Shown here in pieces: positions 3,605-21,900 of a DNA stretch of 28,441 bases. Position 1 is the first letter of the stretch, and each line of letters starts with the position of its first letter. The DNA lies in the IMG/VR virus record IMGVR_UViG_3300010412_000061, positions 1-28,441 of that record; one strand, 5' to 3'. The notes below the pieces were generated by a model. That model worked only from the letters and a program-made list of their open reading frames with translations, was not told the origin of the DNA and did no database searches. The translations under genes and the position numbers were made by a program. The stretch comes from a virus.

Positions 3605-6600
3605 TAGTCATCCGCCTTTACTACTCTTCTTAGCTTCTCATAGTCCAAACCACGGGCATTTTGGTCTTTACTGTCATTAAAGAACTTGGATGCCCTTAGC
3701 CTATCCGGTATTACAGGATCAAAAGTTGCTGAGATTTTTGCAGGAGGAACTAGATTAGATATGTCAGACGACCCACCATTGAGTTGAGCATATCCCCTGG
3801 TGGTCATGATACCCATAGCTTGATTGTTGGCATCTCCCCTTTCCCCCTCACCTGCGTACTCAAGTTCTCCATACCCACCGGCAGCGAGATCAGACTGTAG
3901 TGACCTTCTATACGCAAGCATCTTCTCATATTCTAGCAAATCATCCTTGTCCAGCAGCTTAACGTTTGACGCATGCACTGTGGACTGTAAATAATATGGA
4001 TCAGCTATCCAATATCCAGGGTAGTGTCCGTAACTTAAAGTAAGAGTAGTCCTGAACTCGCCGCCATAAGCAAACGAGTGGGATACTTTGTCTATATAAT
4101 ATAGCATATTTCTGCTTTCTACGTATACGACTTCGCCTGGCTGATAAAACGGATTACCGACCACAGTAATCGTTCCGCTTAGTATCTTAGCCTTGGCGTG
4201 CGCGATATATGAAAGAGCATATACCGGTATCTGCTCCATAGCATCTCTGAGCCATGCCTTAGTCACTTGCTCTTTTCTATACCCGTAGTGGAACCACAAA
4301 TCATAGTCTACAGCCGCACCAGTTAATCCTGTCCCAAGAGCTGCCCTTGGATCAGCACCGTTCTTTTCATAATCCCACTGGCCAGTTACATCGACCCTGC
4401 AAAGTACATTTTCATTCTCTGCAAAACTCCAACTAATAATATCCTCATCCGTGATATAGACATGATATCTGGTTCTTGGCTGTCTTGACGTGACTGACGC
4501 ATCATTTATCTCAGGCGAATTGCGCAAAAGCTCAGTTGCATACTTCAACTCGTCTTCGTATTCTTCTATCGGATAATCTAGCTCTAGAAGCTGAGCCCTT
4601 AAGTATGGAGACTTATACACCAAGACCCACGGAAGAGCTATACCAGGCAAATATTTTACTAATTCCTCTTCTCTTTTCTCCCAGTTCTCATCAAGTAGCC
4701 AATCGCTCAAACTTTTACCTTGCAACACCTTATCCTCAAACTCCGCCAAGTAAGGTACAAGCTTTCGTTTATAAACTGACGCTGGGATACAATTAAACTG
4801 TCTCTTTCGATATATGATATTGCCCTGCGTGTCTCCAAATAATTCCCAATCTAGCTGGTCAGCCACATCTTTGAGAATTTGCCTCTGACTAAGCCTTTCA
4901 CTCTGCCACATCGCATCTCTAGCGTCGCGCATGTTTTGTGCGAACGCCCTGGCCGCCACGCTGCCTAGATATGTCATATCAATGACAGCATATGTTTGAT
5001 CTATATTCCTAACAATATCTTCGCGTCTATTTAGTAAAATAAAGTTCTGTGCATCTCTATACGTTAGACACTTTGCTGCATTGGCTAGCATTTCCTCTTG
5101 GGTTGAAGCGGAATCTCCCCTAGGATATCCCTCAATAACATCTGATATGTAGAAGTTGCTTAAATCTGCGCCCTTAACATCTTTGCTCTTTGCGAGAGCT
5201 AGATCTAGCTCAGCCCTATACGCCTCATACCTGGCGCGTCTATCTTCTTCAGTCCCAGTCTGATCGGTGGAAAGTTTTTCAACTGCGTGTGCAAGCATAG
5301 TTCCATAGGCGTTCAATTTCTGCAAAGTATCTATGGATGTTGTCGTTTCGCCAGATATTCCAAGAAGATCCTGGACGTACTTGCGCTGCTGCGCGTCTTC
5401 AACTTGAGGCGCCTGGAACGGGTCAGTCAACGGCTGTGCGCTTATACTTTTCTGAGCAGCGGACTGATCAAAATAATGCTCTAGATTCTCATCACTGAAT
5501 TGCATAAGCTCGTATGACAAAATATCAGCTGGAACCCATGCAAATGGTATAAAATTGCCCAATACCTTATTCTGTATTTCTGCGGCATATCTGAACTGCT
5601 GTAAGAATGTCCCGCCCTCAAGAGGCGTCGAGACAAGATTAGAAATTGAAGATCTATAATACGCATGGTCATCATCTGGAATGGAAATGGAAAGCTGCAT
5701 ATTTGGATCAAACGGCACGCCGCACAATATAGTTGACACCAAGTTCGCTGCGTCGTAGCCGGCATAAAACCTTTCTCTCATATCTACGCCCATTGATAGA
5801 GCCTGCAAGTGACCGTATGTGATATCGGTAGATCCGGTGGCACTCGGCAAATTCGACACTGGAAAAAGCCCAGACATAGCCCTAACACCCCAAAGCCAAT
5901 GCCAGCTTCTTTTACCTGTAGGATCAGTGACAAGAGTTATTGGAGTGTCTAGAAGACCGAACGAATCGATCATTGAACCAGCTGGAGTTAATCTAGTCAT
6001 ATCCAGGAATTTAAAATTGTTACCGGCATTCACTGTAACAGTATATACTCCGTCATTCCACGCCTCTGTAACAGCCGATACTACTCCACTAAAAACCTGC
6101 ATACCATTAGTCAGGGCAAAACCAGTCAGATTAGCAGTGTCTCCCTTAGGCCACTTAGTTATATTGCCCTCGTCGTCGAATTCAAAACCAAACATTCTAA
6201 GTCTGTTTTTAATATCTTCAGACTCCATCGATATTGCGTTTAGTCTGAGATGTTGCAGCTGCTGCTGAGATAGAGGACTCTTCCCAGTCTCTAACGCAGA
6301 TACTGCCTCTGCCGTCTGCTCGCCTGACCCAGTCTTATCAAGCTCATCAAGTTGGGCCTGGACATCTTTAATTTGCTGGTCTAGATCATTTGCTCTTTGT
6401 GCCGCCTCTCGAGCCAAACGAGTAAGTTCAGACTGGTTGGTTGGCGGGGGCATAGCTGTGCTTTGAGCCACGTATTCTTGTACTTTTGCAACTTCAACGG
6501 CCTTAGCTTTTTGTAAATCGTCTATCTGCTGTTGGTATTGTGCCCTAGCCTCATCCTTTGCTCCCTCACTTGGTTCTTGACCAGATATAGCCTGCGATGC

Positions 6601-8109
6601 CTGGTCTACTTGCTGCTGCGCTCTTTCTGCATCAGTCTGACTAGGCTGGCTGTTTTGAATATCCAATCTTTCCCCGTATAGCTGCTGCAGCCTGTCAACT
6701 AGATCATTTACTACATTAAACTCAAACAGATCCTCCTTAACCGGTGACATCCATACATATACCTCATCCATAACTGTGAATATACTTCTGCCGGCGACGT
6801 AATGATATAAGTAGTCTATGTCTCTTTTATAATAGACGTATTCACCAGTTTTCAGCTGGGCCAAAGGCTTACCTGGCATATCTGAAAGCTGATAGTTGAT
6901 AAGCGACAATTCCTCATCGATGGGAGCTTTGATATCTCTGATCTCATCTTTTGCCGCCTCTCTTTCCTGTGTGCTCTGGCCTGTTTTTTTAATTATGTCT
7001 AGATCATTAGATATATCGTTATATTCTTGCTCTAGGCGAGCCTGATCGTCTCTAAGACCCTGTATTTGCACTACGAAATTATCTATATCCTCCTGTTTTA
7101 GAACTACTCCTGTGTTAGGATCTTTATCTCCGACCTTATAACCCTCGTATTGGCTTATTCTATCCGATATCTCGTTTATTTCTTTTCTTTTGGCAAGTAG
7201 CCTCTCTTCAATCTCTTGGGTTTCCTGAATCGCAGCATCCGATGCGCCTGCCTCCTGACCTTCTGGTGCAGCATACGGGCGCTGATCTATCCCGTCTATC
7301 TGAGCTTGTAGCTCTGCCTGTCTTCTCTCCAGCTCTTGCTTTCTTCCTTCAAGATCCTGTCTCTTAGCGATATTTGGATCAGCACTTGGATCCATTTCGC
7401 TATTAAACAACTTATCTATATCCCTCTTGGACACATACAGTAGATTATAAGGATCCTCCATTGTTATGGAACAACTACCCAATTCAGCCGTATCAACTGT
7501 TAATGATGTACTTAACTGTGTAAAATTTGTCACCTCGAGAATCCCGCCTGGATAATTTCCGACATTATCACCGTACCAATACATTCTATAGTGATTATAT
7601 TCTTTACCGACTGGCTCGTATGAGTCTCTCTTTCGCGTTAGCGCGCCATCGTTCTCCTGTCTTACTCCGTACATATATCTAAACTTTGTAAGCATCTCTA
7701 CTGTTGCTATATCTATACTTTTTTGTATCATAAGGTTAGTCATTGCCTTTTGGAATGTGAGAGTCCATCCAGCTGTAGATGCAAGTGACCTGAAATATTT
7801 CTTCCTGAAATATATAGATGCGGATGGAGTCTGCCCAATGACCACTGCCCTATTTCCATGGTCCTCTGGAAGTGTCTGAAGCGGCTGATTGAAGTCATCA
7901 ATCTCCATTGTCTTGCTGAATGCGTCTACCTCTTCCCAATTCTTAAACTGTCCCTCTTCCACATACTGATCGCCGTCTCTGACACCGGCAACACTCCTAG
8001 GCGGTAAAATCCTACGCCACGCTAGCTCACCGGTATTACTATCTGATATAATACTTCGATAGTTAGCAGCAAATCTCTTAGCATCTTCTTCTTTATAACT
8101 ATCAGCCAT
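3604..8109 (-). CDS. Tail hub protein (gp27/gpD-like) with two coiled-coil insertions
   Basis: A 1501-residue protein whose ATG shares a base with the TAA of the preceding gene (TAATG); AGAGAGGA lies just upstream. Residues about 670-695 (QVFSGVVSAV, GVYTVTVNAGN) and about 1316-1366 (PGEVVYVESRNMLYYIDKVS, TTLTLSYGHYPGYW) have the pattern of hub proteins that form the ring beneath the tube and carry the spike. Two long charged heptad-like stretches, about 244-410 (Glu, Gln, Lys, Arg, Leu rich) and about 488-595 (Gln and Ala rich), look like coiled coils inserted before the hub core. The protein is several times longer than T4 gp27 (about 390 residues). Genes before and after are baseplate-type, which fits. 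The hub role is inferred from pattern and order, and residues about 750-1300 are not assigned to any domain. Confidence 0.68.
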   Translation of the reverse strand: MADSYKEEDAKRFAANYRSIISDSNTGELAWRRILPPRSVAGVRDGDQYVEEGQFKNWEEVDAFSKTMEIDDFNQPLQTLPEDHGNRAVVIGQTPSASIYFRKKYFRSLASTAGWTLTFQKAMTNLMIQKSIDIATVEMLTKFRYMYGVRQENDGALTRKRDSYEPVGKEYNHYRMYWYGDNVGNYPGGILEVTNFTQLSTSLTVDTAELGSCSITMEDPYNLLYVSKRDIDKLFNSEMDPSADPNIAKRQDLEGRKQELERRQAELQAQIDGIDQRPYAAPEGQEAGASDAAIQETQEIEERLLAKRKEINEISDRISQYEGYKVGDKDPNTGVVLKQEDIDNFVVQIQGLRDDQARLEQEYNDISNDLDIIKKTGQSTQEREAAKDEIRDIKAPIDEELSLINYQLSDMPGKPLAQLKTGEYVYYKRDIDYLYHYVAGRSIFTVMDEVYVWMSPVKEDLFEFNVVNDLVDRLQQLYGERLDIQNSQPSQTDAERAQQQVDQASQAISGQEPSEGAKDEARAQYQQQIDDLQKAKAVEVAKVQEYVAQSTAMPPPTNQSELTRLAREAAQRANDLDQQIKDVQAQLDELDKTGSGEQTAEAVSALETGKSPLSQQQLQHLRLNAISMESEDIKNRLRMFGFEFDDEGNITKWPKGDTANLTGFALTNGMQVFSGVVSAVTEAWNDGVYTVTVNAGNNFKFLDMTRLTPAGSMIDSFGLLDTPITLVTDPTGKRSWHWLWGVRAMSGLFPVSNLPSATGSTDITYGHLQALSMGVDMRERFYAGYDAANLVSTILCGVPFDPNMQLSISIPDDDHAYYRSSISNLVSTPLEGGTFLQQFRYAAEIQNKVLGNFIPFAWVPADILSYELMQFSDENLEHYFDQSAAQKSISAQPLTDPFQAPQVEDAQQRKYVQDLLGISGETTTSIDTLQKLNAYGTMLAHAVEKLSTDQTGTEEDRRARYEAYRAELDLALAKSKDVKGADLSNFYISDVIEGYPRGDSASTQEEMLANAAKCLTYRDAQNFILLNRREDIVRNIDQTYAVIDMTYLGSVAARAFAQNMRDARDAMWQSERLSQRQILKDVADQLDWELFGDTQGNIIYRKRQFNCIPASVYKRKLVPYLAEFEDKVLQGKSLSDWLLDENWEKREEELVKYLPGIALPWVLVYKSPYLRAQLLELDYPIEEYEDELKYATELLRNSPEINDASVTSRQPRTRYHVYITDEDIISWSFAENENVLCRVDVTGQWDYEKNGADPRAALGTGLTGAAVDYDLWFHYGYRKEQVTKAWLRDAMEQIPVYALSYIAHAKAKILSGTITVVGNPFYQPGEVVYVESRNMLYYIDKVSHSFAYGGEFRTTLTLSYGHYPGYWIADPYYLQSTVHASNVKLLDKDDLLEYEKMLAYRRSLQSDLAAGGYGELEYAGEGERGDANNQAMGIMTTRGYAQLNGGSSDISNLVPPAKISATFDPVIPDRLRASKFFNDSKDQNARGLDYEKLRRVVKADD

Positions 8110-9143
8110 TAGTATCCTCTCTTTGGACCAATCATTCCATCTATTATAGTATCACCAGACCCTTCTGTTGTACCACCTGGCGGTGTAGACGGCGATGGCT
8201 GTTGTATAATCGATTCAGGTGGCGAGGTTTGAGACGTGGTCGGATCTGTAGATTTTGGTGCCACGTCTGCATTGGTCGCCCCTTGTATAGCATAGATGCT
8301 AACTGAACCCGGGGCTTCTGGAACGCCAGAATTGCCAGTGGCAAGTGGACGAGGATTGCGATGCCATGGCATATAATTATTGTCTCTACCAACCGTCTTC
8401 CACACGACATACGTTAAAGAATAAGTATACTCACCAGGCGTTGACGCCGCCTCTTGTATGGTAAATGATGTGAAAAAACCATAATACCTCTTACTCCCAT
8501 ACCACAAAACAACCTGAGTGGCTCTTGTGACCAAATCGGTGCGCCTAACTCTACGAAGCTCATCCTCGTCATTCGGGTTTCTACCCGGATTAACTCCAGG
8601 AACAGATGAAAGATAGCCTGAACCCTTCCCGATCCCCCTCAACTCGTCCAACCTACTGGGCGGCAATAGTTCTGATTGGTATAGATCATACAGCAGCTCT
8701 ATTCCTTCTATACCAGAAGACCCAGTAGTGCCGTTAATGGTTACAGATAAAAGATCATCCCCCCAGTACTGCACCATAAAACCACCTTTAGTGCGATTAT
8801 ATGTAATTTTTTTACTAGCCTGTATGGAGACATTCTGCGGGTTGACATACATCTCTATCATTGTTCCATCGTATAGCTCCCACATCATAGGCTGCCTAGA
8901 CCACTTGGGTCTCGCAGTCTTATTTGCGTACTCCTGATCGACCTCTGCCCTTATCTGCTCCTCGGTTTTAGCCACTATTGGATCTGTCTTAAAAAACTCT
9001 TTCCCGGCGAACGGATCTGTAGGTACTGCGTATGGAGAAAGAGATGGCTGCGAGAGAGGTGGAACTGGAGTAAACGAGCTATTGGAAGCAGGTGGATTTA
9101 ATAAATTTGGGTCGAATGTCAATCCGTATTTATCGGTAGGCAT
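8109..9143 (-). CDS. Baseplate / tail tube initiator-like protein
   Basis: A 344-residue protein starting at ATG 9143; GGAG at 9150-9153 with six bases of spacing decides this start. An in-frame TTG at 9155 has no site. The first 70 residues are Pro, Ser and Asn rich and probably disordered. Residues about 80-150 (MIEMYVNPQNVSIQASKKI, then TKGGFMVQYWGDDLLSVTI, then GTTGSSG) form a beta pattern often seen in the small protein encoded just after the tape measure, related to the tube fold. A second beta region follows near FFTSFTIQEAASTPGEYTYS. The C-terminal 80 residues are Pro, Ser and Thr rich and low in complexity. The likely role is to link the tube to the hub at the baseplate. Placement between tape measure and hub supports this, but the exact family is unsure. 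Confidence 0.6.
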   Translation of the reverse strand: MPTDKYGLTFDPNLLNPPASNSSFTPVPPLSQPSLSPYAVPTDPFAGKEFFKTDPIVAKTEEQIRAEVDQEYANKTARPKWSRQPMMWELYDGTMIEMYVNPQNVSIQASKKITYNRTKGGFMVQYWGDDLLSVTINGTTGSSGIEGIELLYDLYQSELLPPSRLDELRGIGKGSGYLSSVPGVNPGRNPNDEDELRRVRRTDLVTRATQVVLWYGSKRYYGFFTSFTIQEAASTPGEYTYSLTYVVWKTVGRDNNYMPWHRNPRPLATGNSGVPEAPGSVSIYAIQGATNADVAPKSTDPTTSQTSPPESIIQQPSPSTPPGGTTEGSGDTIIDGMIGPKRGY

Positions 9144-9149
9144 ATTAGT

Positions 9150-9153
9150 CTCC
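9150..9153 (-). promoter_or_regulatory. Ribosome binding site that fixes the start at 9143
   Basis: GGAG lies six bases upstream of ATG 9143. The longer reading that begins at TTG 9155 would place this site inside the gene and has no site of its own, so ATG 9143 is preferred. Confidence 0.7.
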
Positions 9154-9157
9154 AATG

Positions 9158-12100
9158 CTACGTAATTTGTTCATCAGCTACTTCAGTAATCGTAGTGGTA
9201 TTAAAATTGATCACGCAGTTAGCGTTTAACATGGTCCCGTCATCTGCAACAAGCGGAACGGTAATAGAGTGGCTATCACTACGCTTATTAGCCATTGGAC
9301 CGATTATATATGGGGTGACCATAGGCAACATAGGCACTGCGCCAGATAGTGCCGAAAGTGCATCTCCGGCTATGGCTGTTGCCCTGAATATCTTAGACGC
9401 TACTCCGGTGACAGTTTCAGCCGCAGAAGATATTTTAGATCTCATGGACGTGTCGCCTGGGGCACCTCGCTGCGGGCCGAATTCTCCAGCGCTAATCTTC
9501 TTAGATATGTTTGCCATAAGACTCTCGTCCTGAGAACTTAATAAAGTTCCCTTTTCCTGGGCCTTTCTAAACGCTTCCACACCCATTGATCTCATAGTCC
9601 CTACATACTTACCTATAGAAGTATTCGCAATATTAGTACCTGCTGTAGGATTATATCCACTGCTGAAGAACTTGCTGCCGAGCTTCTTCATCATAGGAAT
9701 GGACTTTGGGCCTATGAAGTGAAGCGCAGCCATTGTTTCTTGATTAATAGGCAACCCTGTTCTCTTTAATGTTTGCGCATAATCAATGACTGCCGCATTC
9801 ATAATCCTTTCTTGTACTGCAGGACCTCTATTTGGGTCCATCATAAGCTTTTTATAGGCTCCAACGTCCCTAAAGTCTGCTTCCGATATTCCAAGATCAC
9901 TAAACATTTCCTTATGCTGTCTAAACATGCCTCTTGCAGTCCCAATCAAAAACTGATACTTGCCGGTGGCAGTAGTTTGTTTGTTCATGGCAGCATAGCT
10001 GTTTCTAGATTCTACGTATGCTATGTTAAATTTGAATGCCATTATCTGCTCTGGCGTCATCTTTCCGTCTACAGATGATATCACAGATGGCGCAAGTTCT
10101 AAAAGCTTTGGAATCTCCATCCTCTTAGCTTCTTGCGCCTTTTGTGCGGCGGCAGGCACTCCGCCAGTCTTCTTAACCTCATCGGCGGCATCTTTGCCAA
10201 AGAAAAACTCCCACGGGGAAAACGTGGTCCTCTCTCCTTCGGTTGCCGTGGAGCCCTGCTGTGCTCTCTTAACTATCATATATTGAGCTGCCCTATCCAT
10301 GCCGTCTGCAAATTGATTTACGCCAGATAAGAAATCATCAATAATATATCCAAATTTATATTGATCTGCGCCCATGTCTGTCGTAGACATTGACATCCTA
10401 GACGTGTTTAACGCTCTCTCCAAAACGCTCATACTCTGGATAACAGCGTCTAAGTACCCACGGACATCGGAGGTATAGCTTCGCCTGTAGTCTATTGTTG
10501 GCTCCATACCACGCGCATCCCCTAGCATATTGAGGAATGCCATCGGGCCACCCATGGAACGGATTATATCAGCCTGGTTCCTTGGTATGATCATTTCTCC
10601 TTCGTGTAGAGAGCGTATTTCGCCTTCGGTCGTATTCAAAGCTCCTATAAACGCAGGCCTTGGTTGTAATGGCGGCTTTGCGCCTGTTTCTTTTGACGGC
10701 GCCTCAGTCTTAGCTTCTCCTCTTAATTTCGCAGCCCTATCCTTCGCCCTCTCTACACCCTCTGAGAATTCTTCTTCGGCTTCCTCACCAGCTAAAAACC
10801 CGATGACAGTTTCTCTGCCTGGTCTAATCTGTGTACCCAAGTACGGCAGTGTCTTTGGCTCTTCATACACAACTTGCGAACTTCTAAACTCATTCATTAT
10901 ATCTCTTGCGGCCTGGCTATCAAAAGCCATACGTATCGCCTCTCGCTCTTCGTTTGTCCTAGCACTTTCCATCTTATCTTTTATCTTCTCTCTTAGAGCC
11001 TTATCCATAAGCGCAGCCTTTTGGGACCTAGACATCTTTAGAGATGGATCATATAGACCGGCGTATTCCTTTCTGCCTGCAGCTATTTCGTTCTGTATAT
11101 CTTTTGATATACTAGCTCCTACATTTTTCAGCTGCTCTTGCATCTCGGGGCTAAAGAGCCTGTCCAAACCTTGCTTATATACCGCATTTCTAAGAAACAT
11201 TTTTCTATCATCTTCCCATTGTTTTTCTAACTCTATCTGCCTCTTCTGTATATCTGCCTTTTTCATCTTTGACACATCGCCTAGATGTTGCTTAATAAAT
11301 TCCGCCTTTGTACCATGCTGCGCCACGAATAGGGCATTGGCATTTTTTATTCTTTCTGCGCGGTTATCAGGGGCACCGAATAAGAATCGATTGGACCACC
11401 CCATTAGCATATCCGTTATCTGCTCTAGGAAATTGGTTTTTTGGTCCTGTATTCTTTTGGCCTCAAGCTCCTCTCCGCCCATAGCCTCCAACGCTTCCTT
11501 GGCCTCGTTCCTGCTTACTTTTCCGCCCTCATTTATGGCTTTAAGCACTGCTGCGAATCTCCACCTGGCACCTTCACTGAGACCTGGCGCTAACTGAGAG
11601 ATTACCTGCTGCTGCGCGTAGAATCTACCATACATCTCTTTTCTTTGCAGCGGCGACATGGTTTTACGTAGCTCCTCCATAGTGATGATTCTATCCGTCT
11701 GAGACGCGTTGAGAACACTTGTCGTCACCTCTTGTAATAAGCTCATATGCGTGACCGGCTGCTTTTTAGGATCGTTTATATCTATCATGGTTCTTACTTT
11801 TGCTTTGAAATCCATCGCAGCAGCCATGGCATTTCTGGTTCCACCAGGACCTCCCTGACCCCACATGGCACCAGAAAATAGAGCTGCACTTTCAACCGAC
11901 ATTTCCCTAAGACCGGATTCAATAGCCTTAAAGTAGTCTTCTATAAGACCCTGCTGATGGTTTTCCTTTAACATTTTAAACAGTCTATTATACATATCGG
12001 CCATGCCCATTATGCGCCTGGCTCCACCAGAAACTTGCGCCTCGGTACCAGTCGCTATGTCTGCTATAAGCGCGTGCGCCTTGGCTATTGAGGATCCAGC

Positions 12101-12796
12101 TGCTTCAGCTCCATATGCCACAGCTCTCCACGCGTCCAATGTATCTGCAGCCCCTTTGGCTATATCCTCCCCTATTGGCCCTCCTCTGGTAAATGTACTC
12201 TCATATGCCTCAGTTACCTTTACTATATCAATCTGGAAGCGAGAACTCAAATTGAAAAGTCCCTCTGTCACAGATCTGCTAATGGTAGATCCCTGAGACA
12301 ATATCTGTATATTCATATCCCCAGCAGTAACAGCAAACTTTCTATAGGTCTTTAGATAATCATCCCACTCATTCAGTGTTATATGCAGTGATGATCGGAG
12401 ATTGCTTTCAGCAGTAATACCCTCTTTAACATAATCGTCTAGCTCTTGACCTGCCATACTGGAAGCGGCTGCTGTGAGCATCAGCTCTTTTCGAAGCTTG
12501 TTATATTGATCTTGCAGAGCCAATATACCGTCTGCAACAGCACGAACATTTTTAATTGTAGTCCCAAGAGCCCTAAGACCTTTATTCTTGCTTTCGTTTA
12601 GAATATTTTCCAGAGATCTAAGAGCGCCTATGTCGCTAAACCTGGTTGTAGCCTTATAGGTCATATCTGCTGACTTAGAAAGGCCAGCTATGATCTGGTT
12701 TATATTGCGCTCGAAATCTTTTATTGAGCTTGCATGCGCCTGCTTAGCAGCGTTTACAGCGCTTTGCATCTCGGAAACTGGAATCTGTTCTGCCAT
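9158..12796 (-). CDS. Tape-measure-like protein 2 with lytic transglycosylase-like domain
   Basis: A 1212-residue protein that starts at ATG 12796, six bases after the TGA of the first tape-measure gene; only a weak GGTGA precedes it. The first 700 residues are mostly helical, as in tape measures. They match the preceding protein at corresponding places (see findings), for example NFLEQITDML at 455 against NFLDRATTYV at 458. LHEGEMIIPR at 730-739 is a motif of tape-measure proteins. Residues about 915-1070 resemble an SLT-type lysozyme fold: YVESRN with candidate catalytic Glu929, then GKYQF at 945-949. This would cleave peptidoglycan glycan strands during DNA entry. The C-terminus ends in short beta strands. 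The tape-measure role follows from length, composition and position after the frameshifted chaperone gene; activity is inferred. Confidence 0.8.
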   Translation of the reverse strand: MAEQIPVSEMQSAVNAAKQAHASSIKDFERNINQIIAGLSKSADMTYKATTRFSDIGALRSLENILNESKNKGLRALGTTIKNVRAVADGILALQDQYNKLRKELMLTAAASSMAGQELDDYVKEGITAESNLRSSLHITLNEWDDYLKTYRKFAVTAGDMNIQILSQGSTISRSVTEGLFNLSSRFQIDIVKVTEAYESTFTRGGPIGEDIAKGAADTLDAWRAVAYGAEAAGSSIAKAHALIADIATGTEAQVSGGARRIMGMADMYNRLFKMLKENHQQGLIEDYFKAIESGLREMSVESAALFSGAMWGQGGPGGTRNAMAAAMDFKAKVRTMIDINDPKKQPVTHMSLLQEVTTSVLNASQTDRIITMEELRKTMSPLQRKEMYGRFYAQQQVISQLAPGLSEGARWRFAAVLKAINEGGKVSRNEAKEALEAMGGEELEAKRIQDQKTNFLEQITDMLMGWSNRFLFGAPDNRAERIKNANALFVAQHGTKAEFIKQHLGDVSKMKKADIQKRQIELEKQWEDDRKMFLRNAVYKQGLDRLFSPEMQEQLKNVGASISKDIQNEIAAGRKEYAGLYDPSLKMSRSQKAALMDKALREKIKDKMESARTNEEREAIRMAFDSQAARDIMNEFRSSQVVYEEPKTLPYLGTQIRPGRETVIGFLAGEEAEEEFSEGVERAKDRAAKLRGEAKTEAPSKETGAKPPLQPRPAFIGALNTTEGEIRSLHEGEMIIPRNQADIIRSMGGPMAFLNMLGDARGMEPTIDYRRSYTSDVRGYLDAVIQSMSVLERALNTSRMSMSTTDMGADQYKFGYIIDDFLSGVNQFADGMDRAAQYMIVKRAQQGSTATEGERTTFSPWEFFFGKDAADEVKKTGGVPAAAQKAQEAKRMEIPKLLELAPSVISSVDGKMTPEQIMAFKFNIAYVESRNSYAAMNKQTTATGKYQFLIGTARGMFRQHKEMFSDLGISEADFRDVGAYKKLMMDPNRGPAVQERIMNAAVIDYAQTLKRTGLPINQETMAALHFIGPKSIPMMKKLGSKFFSSGYNPTAGTNIANTSIGKYVGTMRSMGVEAFRKAQEKGTLLSSQDESLMANISKKISAGEFGPQRGAPGDTSMRSKISSAAETVTGVASKIFRATAIAGDALSALSGAVPMLPMVTPYIIGPMANKRSDSHSITVPLVADDGTMLNANCVINFNTTTITEVADEQIT

Positions 12797-12802
12797 ATAC
12801 TA

Positions 12803-15800
12803 TCACCAAGGAATATCGTTAGCTTCACCGGAAGAAATTCCGGTACTTACTACAATCTGACCAACAGATGCTTTGACATTCTCAACTATAACTCTATTAG
12901 TTACATTTGGCTTTATAAATACTGGTTGCTTCTGCGGAAGCTTCTGAGGGTCTAGGTCTGTACGCGAAGGAAGTTGTTCAGCTGGACCAGCGCGCACAGG
13001 AATCGGTAACTCTGATGGCCTAATAGACTCTAGCTGAGGCGTTCTACGTGGAGGCACTGCGATTGCCATAGGATCATCAGTACGAAGTCGCCTCTGGACA
13101 AGCGGATCTATTGACGGCCAAAGATCTTCTGGTCTCCTTTGGATGTCTCTTCGCTGGAATAGTGGAGTCGCTTCGGCAGCAAACACGCTAGGCCTAGCGA
13201 CATCAGGCGGAGTGACGGGTGCTGCAGCTCCACTGATCATAACTCGCCTAATCAACTCGGCAAACTTATCCAAAGTTGTTTTAGGATAGCTGCGGCCTGC
13301 GTCTATCTGCATACCAGCTATTGCGTCCGAAAGTTTTTCGGCCTCAGTCTGTCCTATATTGGTCTGCCTCAACAAGGACTGTACAATGAGTGCGTGAGCC
13401 ATCGGCTCTGCGCCTGGTCGTCGATCAGTGTGGGCTGGTACGGTTCTCCTCTGAAGCCCATACCTGGGAGTCAGACTGCCATACTGCGATACTACACGTC
13501 TAGCGGAGGACAAAGACTGTGCCCCAGACATTATACTACCTACTGCTTCCATCAACTTTCTTGACGATTCGTCAAGCCTATATCCACCTACGCGCTGCGC
13601 AGCCCCCATAACGCCGCCGAGAGCCTTGATTCTATACGAGGCTTCTCTAGGCAACCACATCTCTCCGGCATGAAGAGAACTTGTCTCTCCCTCTGTGGCT
13701 CCGAATAGCCCGTTAAATTTTTCTCCAACAAATGTACCGGACTTTAGACCGGCAGCTTCTAAATCTCCTTTCATCTTAGCAAGCTGGTAACTGTACCACA
13801 TATTTAATGTCTTCTTTTTGCCCTCTCTCCACAAATACGCAAAAATATTACTTGCAGGCTGCTCCTCACCAGCTACATTCGCTGGGTCACCTATCCTAAA
13901 ATCGTCTTTAGCCGCTGGCCCGCCTACATCACCTGGCTTATCGACAACCGCAGCAGTTTCACGTACTGGCGCCTCTCTTATCTCCGGTCTAACATCTGAT
14001 AGCTGGACATGAACCCTGTCATCTAGCCTAGACCCCTTTTCTTTCAGATAGGGCCTATCGAACCCATATTTTGTCAATAGACCTGACCTGTCCAAGTCCT
14101 CTATCACAGCTTTGCTTATATCTAAAGCCGTACCCTTCTCGTGTCGAGATGTACCTGGCTGTGCAGCCCATGGTTTATCGCGGCGTATAGCCTCCTGCTC
14201 TGCGTACGTTCTCCAGCCGCTAGTCATAGGTATTTGCTTACGATTTGCATCGTAATATTCCTTTGCCATCGCAGCAAGTCTCTGCTTAAACTCCTCAGTG
14301 TATCCCTCTTGGTCTTTCTTCGTCCACCCCCTTATAAGCTTGGCCATATTTTCAAAACTTGTATCTATGCTACCTGCTGGCAATTGCACAACCCTAGCGG
14401 CTCCAGCGCCAGCCGCAGCAACTACATCCTGCTTTGTATCTGCACCTTTGTCCATGCCTCTAGCGGAAGGATCAAACAATCCTGATTCGGCGCCACCGGT
14501 ACGAAGTGCCAACGATAATGCCTCTCTCTTCACATCGCTCCCGCGCCACTTATCATATGTTCCTACTAAACCAGCCTCCATAACATCATAATATTTGGAC
14601 TGTCCAGCATCCAAGTATCTCTGGCGCACTTGCTCTTGCATTTGCTGAGGCATTTCCTTACCTTCATGTGCGTCCCTATATGCCTTCATCTCTGCATCAA
14701 GCCCCTGCTTAGCAACCTCTGCCTGGAATTCTTTTAATCCACCCAAAGCCTTTTCGATATCCTTTGCTTGCTGAGAATCCCCATACATGTATTTAAAATA
14801 CATTCCTCTTACATACGTCGTAGCTCTATCTAAGAAATTCATCTGCATTTTTTGTACATCCGCGCCACGACTTAAAATGCCTTTCAACTCTTTTTTCGCA
14901 TTTTCTATTTGACCCCTTCCGGATGCCGGATCGTCTATGACGGCCATGAGACCGGCTATCTTCTCACCTTCATCGTACCCAACCTTAAACTGCTTCATGA
15001 TCATACCGATCTGGGCATAGTGGTTAGCAGCAAGCCTATCGGCCTCAGATCCTAATTGCCCCCTCATATTCTCCCATGCATCCAGCTTAACGTGGAAAGT
15101 CTCCTGTAGTCTAGCCTTAAATTTTTGAACTCCCTGGACTATCTCATTGCCAGTTCCCTGGCCCCTAAATGCCATGAGCAGATCCATTGCATCAGCCAGA
15201 TCTCCCATTTCACCGCCGCCGGCTGGGGTAGACATCCAAGCCGCCATGCCTATAGACATATCCATAAAACCCTTATTGATCTTCTCTAGAAATTCGCCAG
15301 CTAAGCCTTGCTGGCCAGGCCCAAGACCCACCCAAAAGGCTTCAAATCCTTTCTGTAGAGACTCCATTTTTTTATCGTAATTAGTAATGGCCGCTTCCTG
15401 GCCAGAAATAGCTTGAAATAATTGCTGTTTAATATAAGGAGCCGACACATTTCCTAATCTTTGAGACATATTTTCTATTTCTTCAAAAGATTTAACTACT
15501 CCAGTTAATATTTCTTCTTGTGTCCTGCCTGCTGCAGCCATCTTTGTAGCGGATGCCTCAAACGATCTTAATGTATCATCTAAATCTAAGCCAAGACCCT
15601 GGGATATACCAAATACATAATCCAGCGCCTGCCCCTGAGATCTCCATGCTGTTATAGGAGTTTGCAAATCTTTAAGACTAAATGCAGAATTCCTGAGATA
15701 TTGCTGATATTGGTCAAACTTTTCTTTACTTACGAATAAAGTCGAGTGTAACCTACCAAACTCGGAAAGCTGTTGACCAGTATATCTTTTAATTTCATCT

Positions 15801-16210
15801 GCCGATAATCCAAACGCCGCACCGGTCTTAAGGCTCTCTACTCTAAGATCTATCATCTTCTGGTGTAGCTTTGCCATCAAATCTATAGCATTTAATGTAA
15901 CATTTGCTATGGCACCCAACGACGGGCTCATCTTATCTAGAACGCCGACAGCAATGTCCACACCGGGGATTTGCCTAGTAGACGTGACTTTCTCTGTTAA
16001 AACATTGAATTTGGAGCCAAAATCTTCTATTGCATCTGCAAGTTTATTGAACTTATCAGTTATTTCGCTATAGTTCTCTGACATCATGCCGCTCGTCTCT
16101 GCGGATAATGTCGCAACAGAGGCGACTTCTCGGCCAGTAGCAGTTTCAGACGCTACTGCGGCACCCTCACTAAGCCCTAGCTTTTGCAAGACGGTTTGAA
16201 TTGCGCCCAC
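12803..16210 (-). CDS. Tape-measure-like protein 1 with M15 peptidase domain
   Basis: A 1135-residue protein starting at GTG 16210, with GGAG at 16217-16220 six bases upstream. The first 640 residues are largely helical. Residues about 650-737 match the zinc peptidase M15 (VanY / L-Ala-D-Glu endopeptidase) pattern: SRHEKGTALDI with ligand candidates His690 and Asp697, then RVHVQ with His734 as third ligand and an Asp pair just before it. Such a domain would cut peptide cross-links of peptidoglycan. A tape-measure motif SLHAGEMWLPR follows at 845-855. Residues about 990-1090 are Pro and Arg rich and low in complexity, and the end is beta-rich. The gene sits directly after the tail chaperone G/T genes and an intrinsic terminator, so it needs read-through or its own promoter. 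Codons ATA, AGA and AGG are common here, unlike in the sheath gene. Confidence 0.82.
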   Translation of the reverse strand: MGAIQTVLQKLGLSEGAAVASETATGREVASVATLSAETSGMMSENYSEITDKFNKLADAIEDFGSKFNVLTEKVTSTRQIPGVDIAVGVLDKMSPSLGAIANVTLNAIDLMAKLHQKMIDLRVESLKTGAAFGLSADEIKRYTGQQLSEFGRLHSTLFVSKEKFDQYQQYLRNSAFSLKDLQTPITAWRSQGQALDYVFGISQGLGLDLDDTLRSFEASATKMAAAGRTQEEILTGVVKSFEEIENMSQRLGNVSAPYIKQQLFQAISGQEAAITNYDKKMESLQKGFEAFWVGLGPGQQGLAGEFLEKINKGFMDMSIGMAAWMSTPAGGGEMGDLADAMDLLMAFRGQGTGNEIVQGVQKFKARLQETFHVKLDAWENMRGQLGSEADRLAANHYAQIGMIMKQFKVGYDEGEKIAGLMAVIDDPASGRGQIENAKKELKGILSRGADVQKMQMNFLDRATTYVRGMYFKYMYGDSQQAKDIEKALGGLKEFQAEVAKQGLDAEMKAYRDAHEGKEMPQQMQEQVRQRYLDAGQSKYYDVMEAGLVGTYDKWRGSDVKREALSLALRTGGAESGLFDPSARGMDKGADTKQDVVAAAGAGAARVVQLPAGSIDTSFENMAKLIRGWTKKDQEGYTEEFKQRLAAMAKEYYDANRKQIPMTSGWRTYAEQEAIRRDKPWAAQPGTSRHEKGTALDISKAVIEDLDRSGLLTKYGFDRPYLKEKGSRLDDRVHVQLSDVRPEIREAPVRETAAVVDKPGDVGGPAAKDDFRIGDPANVAGEEQPASNIFAYLWREGKKKTLNMWYSYQLAKMKGDLEAAGLKSGTFVGEKFNGLFGATEGETSSLHAGEMWLPREASYRIKALGGVMGAAQRVGGYRLDESSRKLMEAVGSIMSGAQSLSSARRVVSQYGSLTPRYGLQRRTVPAHTDRRPGAEPMAHALIVQSLLRQTNIGQTEAEKLSDAIAGMQIDAGRSYPKTTLDKFAELIRRVMISGAAAPVTPPDVARPSVFAAEATPLFQRRDIQRRPEDLWPSIDPLVQRRLRTDDPMAIAVPPRRTPQLESIRPSELPIPVRAGPAEQLPSRTDLDPQKLPQKQPVFIKPNVTNRVIVENVKASVGQIVVSTGISSGEANDIPW

Positions 16211-16255: not shown

Positions 16256-16287
16256 AATATAAAAGCCCACCCTAGCGAGTGGGCTTT
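16256..16287 (-). terminator. Intrinsic terminator after the chaperone G-T gene
   Basis: On the minus strand a perfect 9-bp stem (AAAGCCCAC paired with GTGGGCTTT, plus-strand arms 16279-16287 and 16262-16270) with an 8-base loop is followed by TTTTATATT. The TAG stop of the T reading frame (16272-16274) lies inside the loop, so the terminator overlaps the end of the gene. It would reduce transcription into the tape-measure genes relative to the tube and sheath genes upstream. The U-rich tail is short and interrupted, so termination may be partial. Confidence 0.72.
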
Positions 16288-17242
16288 CCACGGATTACCT
16301 TTACAACATCTAGATCTTCATCGGTTAGATGCATGGCGCGGTCTTCACTATGGTGAGCCCCGGTCTGAGTAAACTCTGGGGCCCTACCGAACATGGTCTC
16401 AAGGGTATCTTCAAAGCTTGCATCCTGCTTTAGTTTCGAGTCGCCCTTCTCCGCGTCGAGTATCTGTCTGACTCTCTCGCTACCCTCCGAACTTTCTAGA
16501 GTTGCCAGATATTCCAGTAGACTCTTATGGTACTTAAGCTCATCATCCTCGTCCTCATAGATTTGAGCTGCGTACCATAAGAGATGCCACCTAGGCATTT
16601 GCCTTATCGAATCGTCATCGATTGTTTTGCCCAGAGCTTTACACAGTTTCCACAGGAGCCTCTGGCCAGGCTCCTTTATGAGTTTTTTAGGTCGTCAAAG
16701 GATACGTCGTTGAGAGCTTTGGCTGACTTATCTTCAAGCAAATTATAAAGCTCATAAAGCTTATCAACGATTGGGCCATACATACTCTTAACAACCTTGA
16801 CGCGCTTGGATATTTCGTCAAGATCAGATGGGTCATCCTTGTCTGGCCTATAATACGAATGAAGTGGAAGACCGTTTACTTTCTCCAAAGACCTCGCCAA
16901 GATCTCATCCCTAAGACTGGAGAAGTGTACAAACGATGTTGCCGGTAGATGGGCTACCGCTCCGTACGCGTCTTCTCTTTCTGAGATCTTAAGAGTTCTT
17001 ACCATAAACCTCATGCCTAGAATGGTTACTTCGTGTTTTAAAGCGCCGAACATCAGAAGATCCTCAATCGCGCTCATACCCTTTGGGGGTGGCTGTGGAG
17101 GAGGCGCTTCCTGAGACTGCGGCTGAGGCATATGTGCCTGCTGGGCCTGAGGTGCCTGACCGGAAAAATTCTCAATTTCCTGGCGAGTTCCGTGAAGAAT
17201 TTCGTCTGGGATACCAATAGAAGGAATGGACGTATCTGCCAT
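16272..17242 (-). CDS. Tail assembly chaperone G-T fusion made by -1 frameshift
   Basis: Translation from ATG 17242 that slips back one base at the AAAAAAC heptamer (16682-16688) continues in the -1 frame, CTC ATA AAG and onward, to TAG at 16272-16274. It gives a fusion of about 323 residues: 187 from G and 136 from T. The T part is acidic and helical (WYAAQIYEDEDDELKYH). It has no convincing start of its own: ATG 16598 has only AAGG three bases upstream and leaves 28 clean upstream codons of the same frame unexplained. Frameshifted G/GT chaperones placed between tube and tape measure are a conserved trait of long-tailed phages; they coat the tape measure and recruit tube subunits, and are not kept in the virion. 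Here the signal, position and sizes all fit. Confidence 0.88.
16654..16688 (-). promoter_or_regulatory. -1 programmed frameshift signal (slippery heptamer plus hairpin)
   Basis: The heptamer A AAA AAC is in the correct frame for X XXY YYZ slippage (codons CTA AAA AAC TCA TAA). Six bases downstream of it a perfect 8-bp hairpin begins (AGGAGCCT paired with AGGCTCCT, six-base loop; plus-strand arms 16668-16675 and 16654-16661). The zero-frame TAA lies in the spacer. All three classical elements (slippery site, spacer, stimulatory stem-loop) are present. Confidence 0.9.
16676..17242 (-). CDS. Tail assembly chaperone G (unshifted product)
   Basis: A 188-residue protein made when no frameshift occurs, ending at TAA 16676-16678. 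The start is ATG 17242 because AAGGAG (17249-17254) lies six bases upstream; an in-frame GTG at 17293 falls inside a perfect hairpin and is not credible. Residues about 28-55 are Gln and Pro rich and probably disordered. The rest (LKHEVTILGMRFMVRTL, then SEREDAYGAVAHLPA, later YELYNLLEDKS) is a compact alpha/beta domain as in lambda gpG-type and similar chaperones. It should work with the G-T fusion on the tape-measure proteins encoded just downstream. It is needed in more copies than the fusion. Confidence 0.86.
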   Translation of the reverse strand: MADTSIPSIGIPDEILHGTRQEIENFSGQAPQAQQAHMPQPQSQEAPPPQPPPKGMSAIEDLLMFGALKHEVTILGMRFMVRTLKISEREDAYGAVAHLPATSFVHFSSLRDEILARSLEKVNGLPLHSYYRPDKDDPSDLDEISKRVKVVKSMYGPIVDKLYELYNLLEDKSAKALNDVSFDDLKNS

Positions 17243-17248
17243 ATCTCT

Positions 17249-17254
17249 CTCCTT
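17249..17254 (-). promoter_or_regulatory. Ribosome binding site that fixes the start of chaperone G
   Basis: AAGGAG lies six bases upstream of ATG 17242 and excludes the longer GTG-started reading at 17293. Confidence 0.75.
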
Positions 17255-17264
17255 GTTCTTTCTG

Positions 17265-17291
17265 GGGCCCCTCCCATGAAGGGAGGGGCCC
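17265..17291 (-). other. Perfect 11-bp GC hairpin between second tube gene and chaperone gene
   Basis: GGGCCCCTCCC pairs with GGGAGGGGCCC around a 5-base loop, between the tube stop at 17315 and the chaperone start at 17242. There is no U tract after it (CAGAAAG follows), so it is not a standard terminator. It ends 22 bases before the chaperone ATG. It may protect or define the 3' end of the tube mRNA, or lower expression of the chaperone relative to the tube. Confidence 0.8.
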
Positions 17292-17314
17292 ACTTAGACT
17301 TTAATTAGCTTTTG

Positions 17315-18037
17315 TTAAACTGGATTGCGGTTACCGTGACCAGCAACAGTAGTAGTACGCTGAGGCTGGGAAGTATAAGTAACAACAATACGGGGTGGCG
17401 GGGCTTCTTCTGGCGTTGCGCCGCCGATGAAATACTCGTCGATAAGATCGGGGAAGTCGAGGGAGCCGATACGAATACCCAGGTTAGCCAGGTTTTCGAT
17501 CTGGTTCAGGTCGGGGGCCAGACCGCGCTCGTTGTACCCTGCGGTTACTGGTAGCAAGTCCTCAACGTACTGAGCTTCGATTGTGGCGTTTTCTGTGATC
17601 TGGTAGTTAGCCGCCTGATACGTAGCTGAGTAGTTGGAGAAGTAGCAATTTCTGTATGACGTTACCTGAACACCTACGTTTGGATTGGCTAGACCATGCG
17701 TTCTATCGAACACGTCGATATCGAACGGCAACCTCTGAGCCTGGATGTGAGCAAACCCTCTCCTAAAAGCGGGAGGAAGACGGAGGTTGTCAAATACCAG
17801 GCGTGAAACCTGTAGGGTGACTGTCGTGGGAGCATTGGGAACCAGCTCGATAACCCCGTCTGTACCTAATTCCTGAACTCTCGCAACCTGACGAGACTCA
17901 GAGGGGTTTAAAGACTGGATGGCCCCGACGGCTTCTCCGTTTACCTTGACCACTAAAAGGGGAGATAAGCCCGTTCTTATCCTACGATCAATAGTACTGC
18001 CAGTAGTAGGATAATCAGTTAGGACTGACTGTGGCAT
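17315..18037 (-). CDS. Tail tube protein B
   Basis: A 240-residue protein with a strong AAGGAGG site (18045-18051) seven bases before ATG 18037. It is a clear paralogue of the preceding gene product: both have IRxGL near residue 20, then VGAIQSL, VFDxLRL, GFxHI, PFDI, FDR, ITENAT and NERGL in the same order. The tube role follows from position directly after the sheath and directly before chaperone G/T, and from the beta-rich make-up. Tube subunits stack as hexameric rings inside the sheath to form the DNA channel. The C-terminal 50 residues (Pro and Thr rich) differ from the paralogue. A motif plus inverted repeat 48 bases upstream of the start resembles the one before the sheath gene, so it may have its own promoter or mRNA leader element. 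Confidence 0.82.
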   Translation of the reverse strand: MPQSVLTDYPTTGSTIDRRIRTGLSPLLVVKVNGEAVGAIQSLNPSESRQVARVQELGTDGVIELVPNAPTTVTLQVSRLVFDNLRLPPAFRRGFAHIQAQRLPFDIDVFDRTHGLANPNVGVQVTSYRNCYFSNYSATYQAANYQITENATIEAQYVEDLLPVTAGYNERGLAPDLNQIENLANLGIRIGSLDFPDLIDEYFIGGATPEEAPPPRIVVTYTSQPQRTTTVAGHGNRNPV

Positions 18038-18114: not shown

Positions 18115-18912
18115 TTAAGCTTGTGGAGCCAACCCTCCAGTATCAGCATCGCTGGCTGGTGGCACCTCATTATACTGTGTAGTAGGAGCTGTAGGCGGGG
18201 TATAAATTGGTCCTATAAAACTTGGGTCTCCTGCCTTCGGCGGGCCGGTAGCCGCTGGAACCATACTGGAACTCTGCATCTCTTGCATTGATAGCCCGGT
18301 AGGAACCGACGGAGGCCTGGCTGTTGAAACTGCACCAAGCTCAAGTGCTTCATCGTAGCTGTACTCGAGTTTGCCACCGTCTATCCTTAATCTAAGCCCA
18401 CGCTCATTGTCTCCTGAAGACACTGGATATAGCTCCTGTACGTATTCGCATTCTAGTGTTGCATTTTCTGTAATTAAATATTGCTCTGATCTATAATCGA
18501 CTGAGTAAGAAGAGAACCAACATCTCCTGTACCAAGTCTGATTTGCGTTAAAGACTACCCCATCGTGTTCTCTATCAAAAATGATAATATCGAATGGCCA
18601 TCTCTGCGATCTGATGTGTGAGAAACCGCAACCCAATGCATGTGTAAGTCTAAGCCCATCAAATACAATCCTTCTAAGATTAAGAGTGATCATATCTTGG
18701 CCCTGAGGGATTATCTCAAATGTCCTAGGGTTTCTAGTTTCTCCTATACGCTTTAGTGTGTTTGTCTCTGTTACGCTTAACGACTGAATGGCACCAACGG
18801 TCGCAAGATTACCCTCGCCGTCTGGTATATACGCCATTATCTGCGTAGTTAACCCGGCGCGAATTCTCTTGTCAAGAGTAGTCTGCGTAAAATGGAACGG
18901 ATCTCTAGGCAT
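18115..18912 (-). CDS. Tail tube protein A
   Basis: A 265-residue protein from ATG 18912 to TAA, next to the sheath gene. It shares long conserved blocks with tube protein B (see that entry), so the two genes arose by duplication. The last 70 residues are Pro, Ala, Thr and Ser rich and unlike B, and may be a flexible tail or a small surface extension. No Shine-Dalgarno sequence precedes the start; the bases just upstream (TTAAAGAATA) are preceded by ACCTCC, and a perfect GC hairpin ends 20 bases before the ATG. Translation may therefore be low or coupled to the sheath gene. The tube assignment is inferred from gene order and beta-rich content; which of the two copies builds most of the tube cannot be told. 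Confidence 0.78.
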   Translation of the reverse strand: MPRDPFHFTQTTLDKRIRAGLTTQIMAYIPDGEGNLATVGAIQSLSVTETNTLKRIGETRNPRTFEIIPQGQDMITLNLRRIVFDGLRLTHALGCGFSHIRSQRWPFDIIIFDREHDGVVFNANQTWYRRCWFSSYSVDYRSEQYLITENATLECEYVQELYPVSSGDNERGLRLRIDGGKLEYSYDEALELGAVSTARPPSVPTGLSMQEMQSSSMVPAATGPPKAGDPSFIGPIYTPPTAPTTQYNEVPPASDADTGGLAPQA

Positions 18913-18969: not shown

Positions 18970-21900
18970 TTAAGTGCCAACCTGTACTTCGATGTAGATC
19001 CACAGGAGTGGTAGTACTGGGAGAATTTCCACTCTGACATTGTACTGACGAGGCTCAGTCGTATCCTGAGCTACCTGGATATTGTCGAAGTTGTTTAGCA
19101 GCTTACGATGCAGTAGGCTCTGGCAGATGCTCTTAGTGGAGGCTAGCATCTGGTGAGGAAGATCTGGAGTCTGAGCCTTGCCGATGAACTGGGCACCAAG
19201 ACCGTTACGAAGCTCTTGGGCAGTTAGGTCGGCAATGTTGATGGAAGTTGGCTCTTCCTGGAATGCATTGCCAGACTGAATCGTAGACTTGAAGTGTAGT
19301 ACCTTACCGCCGGCCGCAAGACCATGCACCACCGTGATACCAGCCGCACCGAGTCTATTGGCAATTGTCGGATTGCCGGTAAGAACCGTACGATCGCGCG
19401 TGATGGTAAATCCGATCAGGTTCTTCCAGGTCAAAGGCTCAGCGATGTACTGCTGGCCAGAGAGATAACCACCAGCAGCGGCAGCCATATACAAGCCTGG
19501 AACTCCAGTGTTAAGTCCGTTCAGATTTACCACGATCTTATCGGGGTAGAAGTAAACCGTACGATAAGACGTACCAAAGTTCTCAGGTACACCGTAGTTG
19601 GCAATATCCTCGATGAGCCCTGCGGTGATCTCCCACTGCTCGTCGCCCTGGACACCCTCTAGAACGCCAATGTCTTCAATGGCAACTGGGTTGGCGGAGC
19701 CGGCATACAGGTTCTCCGGCCTCAATGCAACCTCTCTACCATCTGGAGCGATCGTGTAGAAAGCACCTGTAAGTAGCTGACGCTCTCTGCGATTTGGTGT
19801 GGAGGACATAGACTCTACGTGAGCCCTGAACGTCTGCTGCACTGAAGAATAGTGAGCATCTGGAAGAGGAACAATCCAGTATGCATCTGAAGACTCAAGC
19901 GCCCTAGCAGCCTCGCCCCACTCTGGATCGACAAATTCTGCGTCATCACGATCAACGAAGTGAACCTCAAGACCCTCACCATCACGAAGGCCAGCGCGAT
20001 CAGACAAGATGATCGTATTGTCTGTCCAAATCATGTAGCTCATATCGTCGCGCTGAGTATGCATGTACAACATAGCATCCTCTAGGGTGATGTTGTTGGG
20101 ATCATTGTTGCCCCCGTTATAGGCGGTCTTAAGGAACTTACCAACAACGGAATCATAGGTGTCTGTACAGGTCTGATGGAACGCCAGCTCGCTGTTCAGA
20201 TAGTTGTCAATCGGACGTGCATCGATCTCACTGTAGGTTCTAGTATCGGTGCTGGCACCAAAGTCCACGTTGACATCCAAACCACTGCGAAGCCTAAAGA
20301 GCGCGCCGCATGGGAATGCAGTGCCATCCTCGTATCCGTCGAAGCGAGTGCCATCTGGGATCGGGAACTGTCCGCCAGTCGAGAATTGATTACGTACCTC
20401 ATCTGGATAGGCGAATACTGGCAAAGCCTCTGTGTCAGTAGCGCCTACGTAAGGACTAAAGACACCATAGTCGCCAGAGTTAAGAGCTGGATCAAACTCA
20501 TTAGACCCAGGAGTCTCAGGGGGCCCATCCCACCAAGTGGTACCATCTGGATAGATGTACAGATAATGAGGATCCCTAGAATCCAGGAAGAACGGGTTAT
20601 TAACCTTGTTTCTGGTTACAGCACCGGCATTGGTCAATGGAGACGGAATAGTGAGGCCGGAAGTATTACAGCTATAGCCGAAGTTCTTAGTGCAAGGAAT
20701 AGATACAGTGCTCTCCATAACCACTGAACGATGAACCCTATTAAGGAAAACCTGACGAGGAGTTGATGCTCCGCCAGTAGTATAGAAGAAGTTCATCAGA
20801 TCATTATATGGATTGCCAATCATAGTCATGCGATACGCAGGAGAGTGAATATCTGGATTTACATAATTAGCATCGTCATGACGGTGGATTGTGGTTAGTG
20901 CATTTCTGTTATCCCTCGCATGCATGAGACCATGGCTCTTAGCACCCTCGTACTCATCCTCTGGCAACATCGTAAAAGACTGAGTACCATGAGTATGTGC
21001 AGTCCAGTAAAGACCGCCGTTGCCAACGAAGTTACCGTCTGTTCTAGAGACGAGTAGAGTGTCTCTCGTAAGAATTGGCTGAGTAGGCTTAGCCTGAACT
21101 GCTACTACGGAGCGTGCGCCATTAAGGAAGGCGAGCTGAGCACCCAAGGCTAGCGTATTCTCAGCAGACGGATAACCGTGCTTTTTGTACAACGCCACAG
21201 GCTCGAAGAACTCCTCTGGATCGTTGACGTCGCCCTCTGCGATATAAGAGGCAACTAGGCTATCATTCGTCTCCAAAGCACCAGACTTGACCTCGATAGA
21301 GAGCGTATCTCCGATCTGGAACGGCTGCTCACCGGAAACCAGTGAGAATGATACCATACCATTGTCATACTTACCGTCGGTATCGATCTGCCACAGATCG
21401 CCCTTTCTAAATCCAGTCAGTCTTGCTACATTATAGTCACCGACTACAAACGTGGCCACTATAATAGCGCCGTCTGGGGCGGACTGAGATAGTCTGAAAG
21501 ACCTACCTACAAACTGGTCATACGGAATCTCAGTTACACCTGCGGTAACTCCGTTAACAGTAACACTTAGCGTCCCACGGATATAGCCCTGGTAATTGTC
21601 ACCACCAACCACCCATCCAGCTGCAGGCACGATAGTAAACTCGGTGTTTACCACCTCTGCGTTAGCAAAGTAGCCAGCAGTTTCCGTGGCCGCATCGGCG
21701 TGGTCAAACGTAAATACGGTCGCGCTGGTTACGCCAGTTACAACGAAAGTACCATTAAAGTTGGTGGTCCCGGAGATCGTAACCCTTCTGCCAACGCTAA
21801 GACCATGGCTAGCAGTAGCGGTTACAGTGGCTACATCATCTACAGCTACGATTGTGCTGATAGGAGTACCAGGAGCAGCTACGATCTCAGCCCCAGTAGC

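Follow-up and report, generated by a model that had tools for sequence, protein, structure and literature searches.

In this study we have identified two adjacent genes, T1 and T2, that jointly occupy the slot of a tape-measure gene in a phage tail gene run, are homologous over their N-terminal halves and carry different predicted wall-cleaving domains towards their C-termini. The window, that is, the whole stretch of DNA analysed, is a metagenomic contig of 28,441 bases (IMG/VR record IMGVR_UViG_3300010412_000061) and is a fragment from a huge contractile-tailed phage. The best explanation, to which we give a probability of roughly 0.55, is that the tape-measure proteins T1 and T2 are paralogues, which arose by one tandem duplication, gained C-terminal cargo and form a mixed, side-by-side tape that is jointly ejected. 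According to this explanation, a single tape-measure gene would have been duplicated in tandem once, in an ancestor of the huge contractile-tailed phages of this lineage. T2 would then have acquired a C-terminal lytic transglycosylase and T1 an interchangeable C-terminal peptidase, M15 in the window and M23 in two relatives. The virion would contain both proteins as one mixed tape whose two components run next to each other in the same tail tube; both would be gauged by the tube, fixed at the hub and released jointly, and their two enzymes would be active and attack glycan and peptide bonds at a single point of the cell wall. The data show the homology, the single duplication, the slot that the genes fill, the domains of each protein and the equal length of the cores; that both proteins occur in the virion, pack alongside each other, leave it jointly and act as enzymes is inferred.

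All large genes of the window lie on the minus strand, in the order PKD-repeat protein, two small proteins, sheath, two tube proteins, two-frame chaperone, T1, T2, tube-initiator protein, a hub-like protein of 1501 aa and then further genes. The slot shared by T1 and T2 is therefore 3' of the frameshifted tail-assembly chaperone and 5' of the tube-initiator and hub genes. The relatives used for comparison were reached by querying with the pair of tube proteins, and queries with T1 or T2 only, against viral contigs, phage records and genome contigs, returned just M15-domain matches or one locus. A tandem T1-T2 pair is present in four independent loci, the window, L008, L012 (a contig of 332,730 bases) and L013, which are the four known tandem-pair genomes. 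The L012-type pair is not an assembly artefact, because a second assembly also contains it. The genes of the tail run are as follows.

18970 to 23367, minus strand: tail sheath, 1465 aa (phrog_2839, E 2e-8; Tunturi_5 sheath)
18115 to 18912, minus strand: tail tube protein B, a paralogue of A by its likeness to A (45% identity)
17315 to 18037, minus strand: tail tube protein A (phrog_985, E 2.4e-11; phage G gp180)
16676 to 17293, minus strand: tail-assembly chaperone, short (G-type) product (phrog_2792, E 4.5e-4)
16682 to 16688, minus strand: slippery heptamer A AAA AAC for a -1 frameshift, immediately ahead of the G stop (motif position)
16272 to 16598, minus strand: chaperone T-type extension, accessible through the -1 frameshift (no stop in that frame from the slip site into the ORF; homologous ORF in relatives)
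12803 to 16210, minus strand: T1, first tape-measure paralogue, 1135 aa, GTG start (ORF; paralogy to T2; orthologues in L008, L012 and L013)
9158 to 12796, minus strand: T2, second tape-measure paralogue, 1212 aa, beginning 6 nt past the end of T1 (ORF; orthologues in L008, L012 and L013)
8109 to 9155, minus strand: tube-initiator protein, directly 3' of T2 (Pfam PF23980, E 1.7e-5; phage G gp184)
3604 to 8109, minus strand: large baseplate or hub-like protein, 1501 aa (phrog_1015, E 8e-5; position)

The chaperone with its -1 frameshift conforms to the classic G/GT arrangement, which has been described for phiCbK (PMC3556154); the frame at 16272-16598 encodes the T half of the fusion and is no separate gene. 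An ORF homologous to this extension is found at the equivalent position in L008 and L012-L018. The heptamer A AAA AAC is exact in L008, L012, L013, L015 and L018 and is represented by an A-run in L016, and the peptide from the slip site to the first ATG (KKLIKEPGQRLLWK...) is kept in relatives. A possible GGAGCC...GGCTCC hairpin lies downstream of the heptamer in the chaperone gene (16272-17293, minus strand). The sheaths of the tandem-tape phages are 1337-1465 aa long, compared with about 480-860 aa in the single-tape relatives, and because the latter are so much shorter, the sheath of the tandem-tape lineage has probably gained large inserted domains. At the margin of the run, several PKD repeats occur in a protein, at least 1100 aa long, that is encoded at positions 25139-28441 and is possibly a decoration protein of the head or tail surface.

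The relationship between T1 and T2 was first proposed in an earlier note on this DNA, which aligned their N-terminal halves at short matching motifs, and it is borne out by each alignment method used. BLASTP aligns T1 101-477 with T2 81-474 at E 2e-11 and 22% identity, and the Smith-Waterman score of the N-terminal halves lies about 20 SD above that of shuffled sequence. HMM-HMM alignment with hhalign gives 99.1% probability (E 1.6e-18) with two orthologues on each side and 99.9% (E 1e-31) with four, over residues 42-480 of T1 and 18-479 of T2, and the anchor pairs quoted in the note, 122/101 and 458/455, sit inside the T1-T2 alignment. The proposal thereby survives the profile comparison that the note had set for it. 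These results show that T1 and T2 are homologous over a predicted all-helical core of about 440 residues. The parts of the two proteins are as follows.

14771 to 16087, minus strand: T1 common helical core, residues 42-480 (hhalign with T2; all-helical AlphaFold2 model, pLDDT 58)
14006 to 14284, minus strand: T1 M15 (VanY-type) peptidase domain, residues about 643-735 (Pfam PF02557, E 1.1e-5; phrog_13118 endolysin, 3.8e-8)
13577 to 13717, minus strand: T1 GEM block, residues 832-878, with GEMWLPR at 849 (BLASTP, 43% over 47 aa with T2)
11360 to 12745, minus strand: T2 common helical core, residues 18-479 (hhalign with T1; all-helical model, pLDDT 56; Foldseek tape measure, E 7e-4)
10511 to 10651, minus strand: T2 GEM block, residues 716-762, with GEMIIPR at 733 (BLASTP with T1; GE in all four T2)
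9572 to 10069, minus strand: T2 lytic-transglycosylase domain, residues about 910-1075 (phrog_4067 in all four orthologues; phiKZ gp144, 3bkh; invariant E and ATGKYQF)

The identification of these cores as tape measures draws on their slot, on a single-copy homologue and on predicted structure. Neither core directly matches the curated tape-measure HMMs, and the homologue L017, a single gene in the same slot, matches the tape-measure profile phrog_167 over 5-520 (E 3e-7). AlphaFold2 models of the two cores, built from one common set of sequences, are long and nearly all helix, at low confidence (pLDDT 56-58, pTM 0.32-0.34). When both models were compared with viral proteins by Foldseek, the named matches were mostly tape measures, the best being to T2 (E 7e-4), and those of the T1 model were individually non-significant. 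Sequence searches of the PDB with full T1 and T2 or with the T2 core gave no match, and hydropathy analysis found no transmembrane segments in the tapes compared, L017 excepted. Residues 11-105 of T2 weakly match an NCBIfam model of a pore-forming protein subunit, at 24 bits where the cut-off is 240; this is most likely a chance similarity of helices. Two further proteins were considered as core homologues and rejected, phage G gp183 and a tape candidate of LR745208 (hhalign E 0.13-0.41). The latter, at L007:23527-26907, is an unannotated tape-measure candidate of 1127 aa that lies immediately before a tube-initiator homologue in this 485 kb phage and has no similarity to T1 or T2 detectable by hhalign.

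In more distant relatives the same slot is occupied by a single tape gene of 606-747 aa, namely in L014 and L015, which are identical in this gene, and in L016, L017 and L018. A search of the L016 record (301,683 bases, possibly incomplete) found no second tape copy. The single genes align with T1 at hhalign E 6e-7 and more weakly with T2 (E 6e-5, probability 65%), and BLASTP links T1 of L013 to the single gene of L018 at E 5e-7. In a tree built on 428 core columns, all T1 proteins form one group (support 99/97) and all T2 proteins another (87/92), with the single genes opposite (95/95). Separate duplications, one in the window and L008 and another in L012 and L013, are rejected (p-AU 0.00027). 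The grouping by paralogue and this test therefore place one duplication before the split of the four tandem phages, in a tree whose rooting assumes that the single genes represent the ancestral state, in which L017 forms a long branch and the support for T2 is moderate. It was also considered whether tube and tape were duplicated together; this is rejected, since the single-tape relatives and phage G likewise carry two tube genes. The tube-protein tree lacks resolution at the node that would separate one from several tube duplications.

The cargo domains differ between the paralogues in the way that had been proposed, with the M15 domain ahead of the GEM block in T1 (VanY, E 1.1e-5) and the lytic transglycosylase behind it in T2 (phrog_4067 in all four orthologues). 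The M15 match of T1 scores 25.7 bits against the PF02557 cut-off of 25, and its metal and catalytic motifs are intact: SRHEKGTALD (S688-D697, including H690 and D697) and DDRVH (D731, H734) correspond to the SxxHxxGxAxD-type motif and the distal [DE]xxH. The domain also has weak PDB matches to D-Ala-D-Ala carboxypeptidase. T1 of L012 and of L013 instead carry an M23 domain (PF01551, E 2.6e-12 and 1.6e-21), over the Pfam cut-off and with HxxxD and HxH motifs present; the 333 kb contig of L012 has no other M23. In T1 of L008 (L008:8876-11725), no recognisable peptidase was found in residues about 560-760. The T2 domain, a GH23-like lytic transglycosylase, has no Pfam match, and it is matched to phiKZ gp144 at E 2e-4; the catalytic-type Glu929 and ATGKYQF at 943 are invariant in the four T2 orthologues. 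M15 and M23 are non-homologous folds exchanged at the same position of T1 while the T2 enzyme stays constant. A division of labour would be expected to produce such a swap of peptidase fold next to an unchanging glycan cutter. The predicted complement of peptide and glycan cutters is supported in three of the four tandem phages, because the T1 peptidase is M15 in the window, M23 in two and undetected in one; as a general rule complementary cutting is not supported, since no peptidase is detectable in T1 of L008. Profile searches detected no enzyme domain in the single-copy tapes. Such enzyme-free outgroups, together with the single duplication and the M15/M23 exchange against a constant transglycosylase, favour the proposal that a tape measure was duplicated first and the peptide and glycan cutters were acquired afterwards.

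The GEM block had been offered as a further mark of common descent. It is indeed shared by T1 and T2 in the window, at 43% identity over 47 aa, well above the 22% of the cores, but it is absent from T1 of L008, L012 and L013, so that it does not count as evidence of shared ancestry and was rejected as a paralogue-specific mark. In T2 the block is retained, shrunk to GE in L012 and L013. In one Acinetobacter phage and one Streptomyces phage, weak database matches (E 0.2-3) place it towards the end of long proteins whose genes occupy tape-measure-like slots. From these matches and its absence from the other T1 proteins, GEM looks like a general C-terminal motif of tape measures. It is not necessarily as old as the duplication, since three relatives lack it in T1: either the other T1 lineages have lost it or T1 of the window acquired it later, perhaps from T2.

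The lengths of the cores bear on how the two proteins would be packed. The earlier note applied a rule of 0.15 nm per residue to the full 1135-1212 residues and arrived at 170-180 nm for each protein. This figure overestimates the length, because enzyme or linker makes up roughly half of T1 and of T2, and only about 560-640 residues, those preceding the enzyme and linker regions, are tape-like. By the rule, these residues would correspond to roughly 85-95 nm. The helical part would predict a tail of about 80-100 nm, and the same calculation puts the single tapes at 91-112 nm. Within one genome the two cores are nearly equal: counted from M1 to a common Gly close to the core end, T1/T2 measure 469/466, 468/469, 458/468 and 455/469 residues in the four genomes, a difference of at most 14 residues or about 2 nm. 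This near-equality meets the need of side-by-side tapes, although end-to-end packing is also compatible with it, and it is the reason why we regard a mixed side-by-side tape as most likely. The more specific proposal, a heteromeric tape in which two co-measuring paralogues lie side by side, each with half of the wall-cutting kit and with M15 and M23 exchanged under constant function, falls a little short of even chances in our judgement.

It is also conceivable, though we think it unlikely, that only one copy is the ruler and that the other keeps its core for packing or chaperone binding while acting chiefly as a pilot protein or as a carrier of lysin on the tail. T1 adjoins the chaperone and matches the single-copy genes more closely, between the two subgroups of the tree T2 has changed more rapidly than T1, which could reflect relaxed ruler duty, and T1 of L008 is without enzyme, all of which would fit such a division. 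However, the two cores remain almost equally long, and within subgroups they are equally conserved (about 51% between the window and L008, about 56% between L012 and L013). An end-to-end arrangement, with a tail about double the length of that of the single-copy relatives, is improbable. Each core is roughly as long as an ancestral single protein (606-747 aa), as such an arrangement would have it, but both proteins carry large distal cargo, and that of one would be forced into the middle of the tube; moreover, the full-length tape of diffocin, a coiled-coil homotrimer, spans the entire tube with its N-termini at the collar and its C-termini at the spike (PMC11329794). Least credible is that T1 and T2 are alternatives, one or the other per virion for different envelopes or growth states: the cargo enzymes do differ, and there is a precedent, for single tapes only, in a lysin motif that is reported to be of use in some growth states (mycobacteriophage TM4, a work cited in PMC3556154), but the genes lie 6 nt apart in an operon-like run with no switch seen, and the pair is retained in all four phages.

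Tail rulers described so far are, as far as we could find, single gene products. Our search of the open-access literature found no tandem or two paralogous tape measures, which is not proof of absence; papers that speak of two tape measures were rejected as precedents, since they concern chaperones, internal repeats of a single protein or homologues that appear in a mass-spectrometry list. A lineage with a duplicated ruler would serve as a natural experiment for studying tape stoichiometry, the measuring part of the protein and selection for two wall enzymes at one puncture site, with the single-copy sister phages as the pre-duplication state for comparison. The diffocin tape and gp46 of JBD30, a homotrimeric tape as well (PMC11445458), resemble T1 and T2 as long helical proteins in a slot between a frameshifted chaperone and tube-initiator or hub genes; they differ in being homotrimers of one gene product, whereas the window has two paralogous genes. 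Because the tapes of these two structures are homotrimers, T1 and T2 may, by analogy, form a mixed trimer or a bundle of two trimers. Tape measures of enterococcal phages carry a lytic-transglycosylase domain as T2 does, with no paralogous partner described (PMC10194240). The T2 domain also shares the Glu and SATG-x-(Y/F)QF core of phiKZ gp144 (PDB 3bkh), which, unlike T2, is a stand-alone endolysin outside any tape measure. Bacillus phage G has tandem tube genes (gp179/gp180) like tube A and B of the window and an annotated tape of 2893 aa, gp183, between a chaperone and the initiator homologue gp184. Like T1 and T2 together, gp183 has cutters of both kinds, a glucosaminidase for glycan and an M23 for peptide; however, these are on one polypeptide from a single gene, and hhalign detected no sequence similarity between its tape region and T1 or T2. 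The same contrast applies to CwlP (YomI) of SP-beta, a very long, probably tail-borne protein in which one gene combines the complementary lysozyme and endopeptidase domains (PMC5380687). What is new in the phages described here is that predicted complementary wall cutters are divided between two paralogous rulers.
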